Shown here: piece by piece, positions 13,499 through 35,303 of the stretch | Layout of the letters: every line of letters begins with the position of its first letter | Numbering within the stretch: position 1 is the stretch's first letter | From: Ornithinibacillus sp. 4-3 | GTDB lineage: Bacteria; Bacillota; Bacilli; Bacillales; Amphibacillaceae | Assembly (NCBI RefSeq): GCF_040958695.1 | Contig: NZ_CP162599.1 | Coordinates: 1,584,001 to 1,648,000, forward strand | Reading direction: 5' to 3' | DNA length: 64,000 nucleotides | Notes under the pieces: model-generated | Database searches by the model: none | Told to the model about the DNA's origin: nothing | The model's input: the letters and a program-made list of their open reading frames with translations, nothing else | Program-made: the position numbers and the translations under genes

Positions 13499-14122
13499 TT
13501 ATCCAAAATGACGATATAATCCAATGACTTTACCTAGAATCGATACATTTTGTAAAAGCAGTGGCTCCATATAATCGTTCTCAGGCTGTAAACGGATATG
13601 ATCAGATTCTTTATAAAAAGTTTTGACAGTTGCTTCATCATCCTCTGTCATCGCTACTACAATATCACCATTTAATGCTGTGTTTTGCTGTTTAACAATA
13701 ACCCGATCTCCATCTAGGATTCCTGCATTAACCATACTTTCTCCTTCAACAATTAAAATAAATAAATTATCGTTCTCATTAGCAGCAGAACGTGGTAGAG
13801 GAATATATTCTTCTATGTTTTCAATTGCTGTAATAGGAATACCAGCTGTAACTTTCCCAATAACGGGAGCATAGCGAGCTTCATCTTTTGGAACTGAATT
13901 TTCCATATCTAAATCCAAAATTTCAATCGCACGAGGTTTGGTAGGATCTCTTCGGATATAGCCTTTCCTCTCTAATCTTGATAGATGTCCATGAACAGTT
14001 GAACTAGAAGCTAATCCAACAGCTTTAGCAATTTCACGTACAGATGGTGGATAACCTTTAATCTCAACCTGCTCTTTTATGTAATCGAGTATCATTTGTT
14101 GTCTTTTAGCCAGTTTTGACAT
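13499..14122 (-). CDS. lexA: SOS repressor LexA (DinR)
   Basis: 207 residues from the ATG at 14122, chosen because MSKLAKRQQ is the family N-terminus and AGGTGA lies 8 bases upstream; the frame stays open further upstream without a better start. The N-terminal winged helix ([21 protein letters not shown]) reads the operator. The S24 domain has the self-cleavage site Ala93-Gly94, catalytic Ser129 (EGESM) and Lys167. RecA filaments trigger autocleavage and induce the regulon. Targets visible here are lexA itself, the divergent micropeptide-yneB operon and probably parE. Confidence 0.97.
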
Positions 14123-14159
14123 GTCTGCTTCACCTCGCTCTTTATGTTTGATTGTATTA

Positions 14160-14188
14160 ATTTTATCATTCATAAAATCAAAATGCAA
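14160..14188 (-). promoter_or_regulatory. lexA promoter
   Basis: On the minus strand TTGCAT (-35, plus-strand 14183-14188) and TAAAAT (-10, 14160-14165) are 17 bases apart. The -35 overlaps the LexA box, consistent with autoregulation. Confidence 0.6.
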
Positions 14189-14199
14189 ACATTCGTTCG
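14186..14199. promoter_or_regulatory. LexA (SOS) box upstream of lexA
   Basis: CAAACATTCGTTCG matches the Gram-positive consensus CGAACnnnnGTTCG with one mismatch. Confidence 0.8.
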
Positions 14200-14589: not shown

Positions 14590-15264
14590 ATGAATCCTAA
14601 AGTTATTACATTTGATGTATATTCAGCTTTAACTGATCTTAAAGGTAGTGTAGTTCAGGAATTGCAAAATGTTTTACAGGATGAAAATATTCACTATCCT
14701 ACCATGTTTCAAATGTGGCGCGATAGACAATGGAATTACTTATTGATTACTAATTCTCTGCAAAAAGGATATGTTAGCTATCATACATTAACGACACGCG
14801 CACTAGAATATACGTTAAATCAATATAAAATTGATCTGACAGAGCAAGAAAAGGAACAATTAGTAGCCGGATGGAGCCGATTAAAGCTTTGGCCTGAAGC
14901 AGAACAAATATTGATGAGGCTTAGAGAAAAAGGGTATAAACTCGGAATGCTTTCAAATGGGGATGAGTACATGCTACGTACATTAGATCAAACATTTAAT
15001 TTTTCTTTTGATTATATTTTTTCTTCAGATCAGGCAGGAGTTTATAAGCCTAGTGCGGAGATTTATCAACTTCCTTTAAATTTATTAGAGATTTCTCCTG
15101 AAGAAGTTCTCCATGTTGCTGGGTCATATATCGATGTTATGGGAACAAAATCAGCTGGGTTGCCATGTGTCTGGACGAATAGGCTTAATGACACTATTTT
15201 TGATCCTGCCTATGCTCCAGATTATGAATTGAAAAATTTAGAAGGTTTATTACAATTTTTATAA
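14590..15264 (+). CDS. HAD-superfamily hydrolase, 2-haloacid dehalogenase-like
   Basis: 224 residues. Motif I places the nucleophile at Asp9 in TFDVYSALT; the usual Gly-Thr-Leu after DxY is changed to Ser-Ala-Leu. Motif II is SNGD at 122-125, the motif III lysine is K153 in YKPSAEIY, and motif IV is GSYIDVMGTKSAG. The absence of a second Asp two residues after the nucleophile is the pattern of L-2-haloacid dehalogenases rather than phosphatases. The substrate is unknown. The start ATG follows TTGGAGG. It is a single gene between lexA and the SOS operon with its own terminator. Confidence 0.85.
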   Translation: MNPKVITFDVYSALTDLKGSVVQELQNVLQDENIHYPTMFQMWRDRQWNYLLITNSLQKGYVSYHTLTTRALEYTLNQYKIDLTEQEKEQLVAGWSRLKLWPEAEQILMRLREKGYKLGMLSNGDEYMLRTLDQTFNFSFDYIFSSDQAGVYKPSAEIYQLPLNLLEISPEEVLHVAGSYIDVMGTKSAGLPCVWTNRLNDTIFDPAYAPDYELKNLEGLLQFL

Positions 15265-15400: not shown

Positions 15401-15414
15401 CAAACATTTGTTCG
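15401..15414. promoter_or_regulatory. LexA box 1 of the SOS micropeptide-yneB promoter
   Basis: CAAACATTTGTTCG, one mismatch from CGAACnnnnGTTCG, just upstream of the -35. Confidence 0.8.
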
Positions 15415-15423
15415 CAAAAACTG

Positions 15424-15452
15424 TTGACAAGAACAAATGATCGTATTATTAT
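15424..15452 (+). promoter_or_regulatory. Sigma-A promoter of the SOS micropeptide-yneB operon
   Basis: A perfect -35 TTGACA (15424-15429), 17-base spacer and -10 TATTAT (15447-15452). LexA boxes lie on both sides. A weaker LexA-like sequence, AGAACAAATGATCG, sits within the spacer at 15430-15443. Confidence 0.85.
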
Positions 15453-15467
15453 ATAAATAACCAAAGG

Positions 15468-15481
15468 CGAACAAAAGTTCT
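15468..15481. promoter_or_regulatory. LexA box 2 of the SOS micropeptide-yneB promoter
   Basis: CGAACAAAAGTTCT, one mismatch from consensus, just downstream of the -10 and overlapping the expected initially transcribed region. Confidence 0.82.
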
Positions 15482-15505
15482 TATCTGAAATAGGAGGGTT
15501 CAAAT

Positions 15506-15601
15506 ATGTTTAGTAATTTATCAAAAACAGATTTATTTTATATTGTAGGATTTGGAGTATCACTAGTACTTATGTATTTTGCAATGGTTTCTGTACTTTA
15601 A
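15506..15601 (+). CDS. SOS-controlled 31-residue single-pass membrane micropeptide at the yneA locus
   Basis: A 31-codon frame with ATG start and TAA stop, 8 bases behind a near-perfect ribosome binding site (TAGGAGGG). Residues 1-9 (MFSNLSKTD) are polar; residues 10-31 are an uninterrupted hydrophobic helix long enough to cross the membrane, leaving essentially no extracytoplasmic tail. It is the first gene behind a strong promoter flanked by LexA boxes and lies 12 bases before yneB, exactly where B. subtilis has the SOS division inhibitor YneA (a longer protein with a membrane helix and a LysM domain). The LysM domain is absent here. By position and regulation it is inferred to be an SOS-induced division or membrane regulator; homology to YneA is not shown. 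Confidence 0.75.
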   Translation: MFSNLSKTDLFYIVGFGVSLVLMYFAMVSVL

Positions 15602-15604
15602 TAG

Positions 15605-16252
<648 letters not shown>

Positions 16253-16638: not shown

Positions 16639-16872
16639 ATGACATTTGAAGAAAAATTAGCAAGAATTAATGAGTTAGCTCATAAGGAAAAAAAAGAAGA
16701 ATTGACAAAGGAAGAAAAACAGGAGCAACAACAACTGCGTCAGGACTATTTGCAGAATTTGAGAAAGTCTTTTTCCAATCAAATTGAAACATTAACTGTT
16801 ATCGATCCAGAGGGAAAAGATGTTACTCCAGAAAAATTAAAAGAAATCCAAAAGCGAAACAAATCAAACTAA
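16639..16872 (+). CDS. ynzC: YnzC family protein (DUF896/UPF0291)
   Basis: 77 residues, a small cytoplasmic helical-hairpin protein. The N-terminal FEEKLARINELAHKEKKE and the LRQDYLQNLR motif of the DUF896 family are visible. In B. subtilis ynzC is the third gene of the SOS operon. Here a terminator and a repeat element lie between yneB and ynzC, so SOS control may have been lost or weakened. The start ATG follows TAGGAGGTC. Function unknown. Confidence 0.92.
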   Translation: MTFEEKLARINELAHKEKKEELTKEEKQEQQQLRQDYLQNLRKSFSNQIETLTVIDPEGKDVTPEKLKEIQKRNKSN

Positions 16873-33285: not shown

Positions 33286-33299
33286 CAAACATTTGTTCT
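33286..33299. promoter_or_regulatory. LexA-type box upstream of parE
   Basis: CAAACATTTGTTCT differs by one base from the first LexA box of the micropeptide-yneB promoter and by two from the consensus CGAACnnnnGTTCG. In B. subtilis parE-parC are reported members of the LexA regulon. Confidence 0.65.
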
Positions 33300-33362
33300 A
33301 TGATAAACGTTGAGAAATTGTTTGAGCGGAAAGGAGTAGAGCGTTTTTTGGATAAGGATATA

Positions 33363-35303
33363 ATGACATATACTGATGATTCCATACAAGTATTAGAAGG
33401 ATTAGATGCTGTACGTAAACGCCCAGCAATGTATATTGGAAGTACTGACGTTCGCGGACTGCATCATTTATTATATGAGATTGTAGATAATGCGGTGGAT
33501 GAAGCATTAGCTGGCTTTGGTGAAAAGATTAAAGTTACTATTTATAAAGATAATAGTATTTCTGTTCAGGATAGTGGAAGAGGGATGCCTACAGGAATGC
33601 ACCGTACTGGAAAATCAACACCAGAGGTTATCTTAACAGTTCTACATTCAGGTGGAAAGTTTGGTCAAGGTGGTTATAAGGCAAGTGGTGGTCTACATGG
33701 AGTAGGTGCTGCTGTTGTTAATGCTCTATCTGAGTGGTTAGAAGTAAAGGTTCAACGTGATGGTTCTGTATATTACCAGCGTTTTGAGAATGGTGGACAT
33801 CCAATTGGCACGTTAGAAAAAGTTGGTGAGACGAGAAAAACCGGTACGTTTATTCATTTTAAACCAGATCCAGAGATTTTTTCTGTAACGACATTTGATA
33901 TCGAAATCATTGCTGAGCGCCTAAGAGAATCAGCATTTTTATTAAAAAATCTAGAAATTGAAATTATAGATGAACGCACAGACTATCACGAAGTTTTTCA
34001 TTATCCTGATGGGGTAAAATCATTTATTCAATACTTAAATGAAGGTAAAGACACCGTAATGGATGTTGTGGCTTTTGAAGGAAATCAAAATGGATTTGAG
34101 TTAGATTTTGCTTTCCAATTTAATGATGGGTATGCAGAGAATATGCTTTCCTTTGTAAACCATGTACGTACAAAAGACGGTGGAACGCATGAAATAGGTG
34201 CACGTTCTGCCATTACAAGAGCAGTTAATGAATACGCTCGCAAGCAAAGTTTATTAAAAGATAAAGATAAAAATCTAGAAGGAACAGATATTCGTGAAGG
34301 GTTAACAGCTATTGTATCTATACGCGTACCTGAAGAACATTTACAGTTTGAGGGACAAACTAAAGGTAGGCTTGGTACACAGGAAGCACGTTCTATTGTT
34401 GACGGGATCGTATCAGAGCATTTGCAATTTTTCTTAACAGAAAATCCAGATATTGCAGGAATGTTAATTAAAAAAGCAATTCAAGCAAAAGAAGCTCGTG
34501 AAGCGGCACGAAAAGCCCGTGAAGATGCACGTTCAGGAAAGAAGAAACGTAAAAAGGAAACCATTTTAAGCGGGAAATTAACACCAGCACAATCGAAGAA
34601 CCCTGATAGAAATGAATTGTACTTAGTAGAGGGAGATTCAGCAGGTGGTTCAGCTAAACAAGGAAGAAACCGCACTTTCCAGGCTATCTTACCATTAAGA
34701 GGTAAAGTAATTAATACCGAAAAAGCGAAGTTAGAGGATGTCATGAAGAATGAAGAAATTTCTACAATCATCCACACAATTGGTGCTGGTGTAGGTGGAG
34801 ATTTTAATTTAGAAGATGTACAATACGATAAAATCATTATTATGACAGATGCGGATACAGATGGTGCGCATATCCAAGTACTTTTACTTACATTCTTCTA
34901 CCGCTATATGCGTCCATTATTAAACGCTGGTAAAGTATATATTGCCTTACCTCCATTATTTAAGATTTCAAAGGGGAAAGGTAAGAAAGAGGAAGTTGTT
35001 TACGCTTGGGATGAGTCTGAGCTCCAACAAGCAACTAAAAAATTTAAGTCTAACTATGTAATTCAGCGTTATAAAGGTTTAGGGGAAATGAATGCAGACC
35101 AATTATGGGAAACAACGATGGATCCTGAAACCCGTACATTGATACGTGTTACCATTGATGATTTAGCAAGAGCAGAACGTAGAGTAACCACGTTAATGGG
35201 CGATAAAGTATTACCAAGACGTGAATGGATTGAAAGCAATGTAAGCTTTGGATTAGATGAAGACGAAAATATTTTAGAAAATGAGAAAATCCAGTATGAA
35301 TAA
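33363..35303 (+). CDS. parE: DNA topoisomerase IV subunit B ParE
   Basis: 646 residues from ATG 33363 (AAGGA 5 bases upstream), giving the family N-terminus MTYTDDSIQVLEGLDAVRKR; a UUG at 33348 and an ATG at 33300 are longer alternatives, the latter lying next to the LexA-type box. ParE is the ATPase half of topoisomerase IV, which decatenates daughter chromosomes. GHKL motifs: DNAVDEALAG, DSGRGMPTG, GLHGVGAAVVNALS. Toprim: VEGDSAGGSAKQGR and DADTDGAHI. parC follows after 28 bases. Confidence 0.97.
   Translation: MTYTDDSIQVLEGLDAVRKRPAMYIGSTDVRGLHHLLYEIVDNAVDEALAGFGEKIKVTIYKDNSISVQDSGRGMPTGMHRTGKSTPEVILTVLHSGGKFGQGGYKASGGLHGVGAAVVNALSEWLEVKVQRDGSVYYQRFENGGHPIGTLEKVGETRKTGTFIHFKPDPEIFSVTTFDIEIIAERLRESAFLLKNLEIEIIDERTDYHEVFHYPDGVKSFIQYLNEGKDTVMDVVAFEGNQNGFELDFAFQFNDGYAENMLSFVNHVRTKDGGTHEIGARSAITRAVNEYARKQSLLKDKDKNLEGTDIREGLTAIVSIRVPEEHLQFEGQTKGRLGTQEARSIVDGIVSEHLQFFLTENPDIAGMLIKKAIQAKEAREAARKAREDARSGKKKRKKETILSGKLTPAQSKNPDRNELYLVEGDSAGGSAKQGRNRTFQAILPLRGKVINTEKAKLEDVMKNEEISTIIHTIGAGVGGDFNLEDVQYDKIIIMTDADTDGAHIQVLLLTFFYRYMRPLLNAGKVYIALPPLFKISKGKGKKEEVVYAWDESELQQATKKFKSNYVIQRYKGLGEMNADQLWETTMDPETRTLIRVTIDDLARAERRVTTLMGDKVLPRREWIESNVSFGLDEDENILENEKIQYE

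Follow-up and report, generated by a model that had tools for sequence, protein, structure and literature searches.

A membrane micropeptide of 31 residues, encoded behind LexA boxes, occupies the yneA position of the Bacillus gene order in the window, the stretch of 64,000 nucleotides of the Ornithinibacillus sp. 4-3 genome analyzed here. This peptide probably does a job similar to that of YneA, through the cell-wall enzyme FtsW. Our preferred reading, to which we give a probability of about 60%, is that the yneA of this lineage has been cut down to an FtsW-binding membrane helix that is induced in the SOS response and delays septum synthesis.

The gene order in Bacillus is lexA-yneA-yneB-ynzC-tkt. 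In the window, the micropeptide gene sits between lexA and yneB, and yneB is followed by a DUF896 gene, tkt (named by eye), sirA (PF10747), and yneF, in agreement with a preliminary description of this DNA that had placed the peptide where yneA would be expected (Table 1). A HAD hydrolase gene (window 14590–15264) intervenes between lexA and the micropeptide, so that the SOS operon does not directly adjoin lexA here.

Table 1. Features of the micropeptide locus, with positions in the window
Feature	Position	Strand	Basis
lexA	13499..14134	-	TIGR00498, E 8.6e-76
LexA box in front of lexA	14186..14199	.	box scan
LexA box 1 (CAAACATTTGTTCG), upstream of -35	15401..15414	.	box scan and conservation
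Promoter TTGACA-17-TATTAT (-35 at 15424-15429, 17-base spacer, -10 at 15447-15452)	15424..15452	+	direct reading
LexA-like box 2 (AGAACAAATGATCG), inside the -35/-10 spacer	15430..15443	.	weaker, 2 mismatches
LexA box 3 (CGAACAAAAGTTCT), downstream of -10	15468..15481	.	box scan and conservation
Ribosome binding site TAGGAGGG of the micropeptide	15491..15498	+	direct reading
31-aa single-helix membrane micropeptide (ATG at 15506, 31 codons, stop ends at 15601)	15506..15601	+	ORF reading, 34-row alignment, dN/dS, AlphaFold
yneB, resolvase-like protein, 12 bp behind the micropeptide	15614..16252	+	NF049883, E 1.4e-103
DUF896 gene (ynzC-like), member of the yne synteny	16639..16872	+	NF002711, E 2.3e-24, below curated cut-off

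The promoter with its perfect -35 and the two LexA boxes flanking it, as first described, were both read again and stand. A third, weaker box lies beyond those two in the promoter spacer, giving three LexA-type boxes in all, and a box at approximately this spacing recurs in most relatives. Boxes with up to two mismatches turn up often enough by chance in the window (68 observed versus 50.7 expected; 4 of 100 shuffles as high); their significance rests on conservation across loci. At least two LexA boxes are found within 220 bp upstream of all 77 homologous loci (67 distinct sequences), as against none of 1540 upstream regions shuffled base by base (0 of 1340 for the distinct set). Three boxes are present in 55 of these copies, four in 16, and two in 6 (48, 14, and 5, respectively, of the 67 distinct copies), TTGACA is present upstream of 73 (64 of 67 distinct), and the yneB match begins 2–67 bp behind the micropeptide in the 77 fetched copies. 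Elsewhere in the window, a LexA-like box (CAAACATTTGTTCT) at 33286–33299 lies directly 5′ of parE (33300–35303, TIGR01058), which suggests that topoisomerase IV may be under SOS control.

The one-helix ORF of 31 residues behind its ribosome binding site also reads as first described. Hydropathy and an AlphaFold2 model calculated on a 34-row alignment predict a single N-terminal transmembrane helix, as in YneA, which comprises residues 7–30 of the micropeptide with a mean pLDDT of 90.7; the expected topology is N-in/C-out. The absence of the YneA LysM domain is borne out, with no match for the 31-residue peptide in Pfam and NCBIfam searches, and the 30–31 aa homologs of the alignment have no extracellular segment.

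Comparison with relatives indicates that the ORF is a conserved gene under purifying selection. Among 61 genomes, 55 have some yneB match, two of these being weak recombinases only, and 53 have a yneB ortholog, the window's own included. Together with five named loci these orthologs provide 58 upstream regions, or 57 distinct ones, as L018 and L042 are the same locus. A homolog of 30–31 aa is present at 36 of the 58 (35 of 57 distinct), 33 of them recognized by pattern and three by eye (L023, L041, and L043). At 12 loci a YneA of 92–108 aa is found instead, always with a match to NF010723 and in 10 of 12 cases with a detectable Pfam LysM domain (PF01476), while nothing recognizable lies upstream of yneB at seven (L029, L049, L054, L056, L059, L065, and L067). 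The remaining three loci encode longer proteins with no Pfam LysM match (L053, 59 aa; L066, 60 aa; L070, 94 aa), which are transmembrane proteins that stand behind LexA-like boxes at the yneA place in other families of bacteria. Carriers of the micropeptide include Oceanobacillus polygoni, Pontibacillus yanchengensis, Halobacillus salinus, H. litoralis, and Sediminibacillus massiliensis.

Across the 34 peptides of the alignment, M1, D9, F16, and Y24 never vary, and K7, Y12, and L20 hardly do. For 62 distinct homologous ORFs, dN/dS is 0.12 in the 10 pairs less than 15% diverged, and 0.10 (194 pairs) and 0.14 (1322 pairs) in two further sets in which dS is near saturation. The other two forward frames contain stops in 61 and 52 of the 62 ORFs, which together with the dN/dS of 0.12 rules out a chance ORF. 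The check on frame conservation named beforehand thus came out in favor of the gene, whose frame is kept in relatives. As to the stops or frameshifts that had been named as evidence against it, among the host loci read one copy (G472) is broken and several loci lack a copy, but the gene is otherwise conserved. A profile search recovered the micropeptide in 55 of 397 genomes of the order at E 0.01 (for some genomes, among the best 20 candidates); 49 of these matches are strong (E 3e-6 or better), all in families f1, f2, f7, f32, and f36, and six are weak. Within the window's own family it is present in 135 of 159 genomes at E 0.001 and is therefore the usual form there, whereas the 12 genomes in which YneA was found at this position all belong to other families of the order. 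Among the matches listed, at the level of titles and the beginnings of abstracts, we found no description of the peptide in the open-license literature.

The micropeptide shares with the YneA of Bacillus (transmembrane helix plus LysM, NF010723) its locus before yneB, the LexA boxes of the lexA-yneB locus, and the short N-terminal membrane helix; it differs in having 31 residues rather than about 100, with neither LysM domain nor tail and no NF010723 match. A full-length yneA with LexA boxes elsewhere in the genome, an observation named in advance as one that would speak against the proposal, was looked for and not found: a LysM scan of the genome gave 13 domains in 8 ORFs with open frames of 237–514 aa, none preceded by a LexA box over a distance of up to 300 bp. 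A search of the 159 family genomes with profile A3 gave no YneA at E 1e-10, a result of little weight, with at most 30 candidates scored per genome and no positive control. NF010723 did not match the window peptide or two relatives at E 1, and matched the transmembrane part of L053 weakly (E 0.0016).

Helix sequences point to common descent for some YneAs, which they support but do not prove. We scored 44 YneA-type N termini (the 12 of A3, 29 database homologs, and L053, L066, and L070) with the micropeptide profile. Ten reach at least 4 bits, each with no more than 2 of 200 shuffles as high, and the best (L052) reaches 16 bits; the other 34 show no resemblance. Among 82 control transmembrane N termini from fetched DNA, three reach 4 bits, or one of 80 when L066 and L070 are removed, and this one stems from a biased IMG/VR pattern scan. 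The difference (10 of 44 versus 1 of 80, Fisher p 1e-4; 8 of 41 and p 7e-4 when the three forms with no LysM are left out) is flattered, because the ten include several close relatives and the controls a few nested starts. In the accessible part of PMC13396833, K5, E6, F10, V11, and F14 of B. subtilis YneA are essential, and its helix binds FtsW TM7. When K5 is set on K7 of the micropeptide, by eye and from the published residue numbers only, F10, V11, and F14 line up with Y12, L/I/V13, and F16, while E6 has no counterpart and does not fall on D9. As to whether the peptide had been "shortened or replaced," the two options of the preliminary description, shortening thus fits somewhat better, given the YneA helices that resemble it, but these are a minority, and NF010723 remains unmatched.

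The link to FtsW comes from a pattern of shared loss: genomes lacking the micropeptide often had a best FtsW match only about 40% identical. At cut-offs of E 1e-95 for canonical FtsW and E 0.001 for the micropeptide, 133 of the 159 family genomes have both, eight FtsW only, two the micropeptide only, and 16 neither (p 3e-14); the micropeptide is missing from 16 of 18 FtsW-minus but 8 of 141 FtsW-plus genomes, with four of the micropeptide-minus genomes (G007, G511, G512, and G535) known by subtraction from lists only. The FtsW-only genomes are G439, G472, and six of genus g26; the micropeptide-only genomes are G024 and G435. In the G435 draft ftsW lies in broken frames, so G435 is not an exception. 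A corrected table that leaves out G439 (73% complete), G512 (80%), and G465, whose contig ends at the ftsW locus, has 134 with both, seven with FtsW only, one with the micropeptide only, and 14 with neither (p 5e-14), most of the co-loss genomes belonging to one large clade. In an RpoB tree of 61 genomes, built by a quick method with SH-aLRT support only and omitting G512, in which no rpoB was found, double losses fall on four branches: a ten-genome clade (support 97), G465, G025, and G535, or three branches without G465. The last three genomes each have a sister that keeps both genes. The overlap of branches has a p of approximately 1e-5, or 1.5e-4 without G465, with the number of branches approximate and all branches treated as equal.

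Individual loci were also inspected, with ylaN-ftsW-pycA of G029 as the reference (ylaN and pycA recognized by eye). In G535, G025, and G024 (L452, L454, and L451) the interval from ylaN to pycA contains no FtsW-like sequence, and G535 and G025 still have yneB and a LexA box; G024 and G025 encode a divergent SEDS protein, 39%–41% identical. The 11 loss loci read that keep yneB retain at least one LexA box, and no micropeptide was seen in them; G009, G428, and G035 have no yneB, and G427 falls outside the loci read. G024, in which ftsW is gone from its usual place and the micropeptide is kept, is the one clear exception; this genome also has a second copy of the micropeptide (L459). Upstream of yneB in G472 (L434), which keeps FtsW, there is a frame-broken micropeptide remnant with LexA-like boxes of two mismatches each. 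Six genomes of genus g26 have FtsW and no micropeptide, and the two that were searched (G026 and G507) also lack yneB. Outside the family, G046 and G057 show neither a close FtsW nor a yneA within the 600 bp that precede yneB, a trait that YneA has in common with the micropeptide. G060, however, keeps YneA although its best FtsW match looks unlike the canonical TM7 region, in a comparison by eye that covered 22 of the 52 SEDS sequences chosen. The comparison for yneA leaves aside G040, G043, G049, G050, and G051, in which FtsW is present and yneB missing. Most simply, these distributions would mean that the peptide serves a purpose only in the presence of FtsW, its presumed target, and the co-loss yields a target prediction ahead of any experiment.

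Under our preferred reading, DNA damage would lead to LexA cleavage and switch on the micropeptide-yneB operon. The peptide, once translated, would insert N-in/C-out, and its conserved helix face (D9, Y12, F16, L20, and Y24) may then bind FtsW, the polymerase of septal peptidoglycan, in its membrane part, delaying septum synthesis, and so arresting division, until repair is done. The LexA step and the FtsW link are supported by comparison among genomes; against the helix face stand the weak periodicity of conservation around the helix (p 0.07) and the position of K7 on its other side. As there is no LysM domain, inhibition would have to go through the helix itself, as for SidA, and not by the LysM-on-glycan route that has been proposed for YneA. 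Caulobacter, the host of SidA, belongs to a different phylum from this bacterium. According to the available portion of PMC4211646, SidA (29 aa) is SOS-induced, acts on FtsW, and may inhibit by a helix-only route; the micropeptide resembles it in size, single helix, LexA control, and, probably, FtsW as target, a likeness of kind. SosA of Staphylococcus (77 aa), as presented in the accessible text of PMC6851548, is likewise encoded near lexA under SOS control with a transmembrane helix and no LysM, but has an extracellular part reported to be critical for toxicity, of which the micropeptide has practically none. YneA is subject to CtpA/DdcP turnover, in the portion of the literature available, and the micropeptide, with almost no residues outside the membrane, should escape it.

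The main difficulty for a helix acting by itself comes from YneA. In B. subtilis, as far as the accessible part of PMC13396833 goes, YneA is argued to depend on its LysM domain in order to block septum synthesis by way of FtsW, and without it is inactive, reaching midcell while division is not blocked. The micropeptide naturally has no LysM domain, and its mechanism would therefore differ from that of YneA; the preliminary suggestion that a helix the size of SidA can be enough to stop division is weakened accordingly. Since the YneA helix alone goes to midcell without inhibiting (same source), a helix-only form could retain just the targeting half of the job, as an adaptor on FtsW or another divisome protein, the arrest itself being the work of a second SOS factor or of a protease that is recruited. 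We consider this unlikely, as no second partner is seen among the neighboring genes and the 11 loci that have lost the micropeptide retain yneB.

Copies of the peptide also occur away from yneB (L102–L106; the IMG/VR contigs L126, L130, L149, and L163; and L459–L471, the last being all 13 extra matches among those listed in family genomes, one of them broken). The IMG/VR contigs come from pattern scans that yielded 80 and at least 120 stretches; HMM scoring then singled out only L126, L130, L149, L163, L172, and L142, the last being the contig that carries L102. L172, a weak match, was left out of the count, and L107 (G319) was dropped, as its match has stops and no phage context. The neighbors compared with PHROGs are phage genes, namely integrase (L102 and L105), anti-repressor (L103 and L149), RecT (L104), Sak4 (L102 and L126), and DnaB (L106), and L103 also lies near an SbcC-like protein and a transcriptional regulator. 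For L459–L471, with two upstream genes put to PHROGs and the rest judged by eye, about nine copies appear to lie in prophage early regions (XRE, anti-repressor) and two lie by resolvase genes (G005 and G034), the other two having no clear context. No convincing LexA box was found within 250–400 bp of the extra copies, L106 and L460 having one match of two mismatches each. In 12 of 22 copies (7 among the first 9, 5 among the later 13) the start of the peptide overlaps the stop of the gene in front of it, which is 84–130 aa long, some of these upstream genes matching phrog_6048, and the overlap suggests that the prophage copies may be translationally coupled within an early operon. Searches of a phage collection with two micropeptides and one upstream gene, and of plasmids with one micropeptide, gave no match, a length of 31 aa being at the limit of the method. 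The peptide of L103 matches phrog_12200 (E 1e-4), as do 4 of 34 host peptides, these only weakly (best 0.012), and 3 of 11 rows of A2; in 61 relatives phrog_12200 gave two weak places only, and we treat the connection as a lead rather than a finding. No description of the phage copies was found among the literature matches listed.

These copies bear on where the host gene came from. That a phage division-arrest gene was put under LexA in place of yneA, an origin compatible with our preferred reading, would account for the prophage homologs being numerous, varied, and devoid of clear LexA boxes. It seems improbable given that some YneA helices resemble the micropeptide and that host copies share one locus across families, and 30 residues are too few to read the direction of transfer.

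TisB exemplifies a type of SOS-induced membrane toxin that could also be encoded here, depolarizing the membrane and slowing growth with no divisome target. DinQ, in the accessible part of PMC3567139, is an SOS-regulated toxic peptide with a single transmembrane segment. The size, single helix, and LexA boxes of the micropeptide fit such a toxin, which we nevertheless regard as doubtful: the residues invariant in the 34 rows, the yneA position, and the co-loss with FtsW are all unexpected of a peptide directed at lipid. A functionless translated leader or coupling ORF for yneB, as the 12-bp distance might suggest, is very hard to reconcile with dN/dS of 0.10–0.14, residue-specific conservation, prophage homologs away from yneB, and the retention of yneB where the micropeptide is gone.

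In its strongest form, our preferred reading would have a bacterial family reduce its DNA-damage checkpoint to one helix of 30 residues that stops FtsW alone, with temperate phages carrying it in early operons, uncoupled from LexA, to halt division of the host at times of their own; we advance this tentatively. There is a precedent in Gp11 of phage PhiNM1, described in the available text of PMC11237401 as an early membrane protein of the phage, which blocks division by targeting MurG and DivIC, and likened to the prophage copies by that description only. A widespread, selected form of the yneA locus product that has no LysM domain would offer a natural way to ask whether a SEDS polymerase can be inhibited by a helix alone, and by which of its faces. 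Judging by the phage copies, this helix may have been turned against the host as well, and a 30-residue ligand of FtsW would be a lead for division inhibitors.
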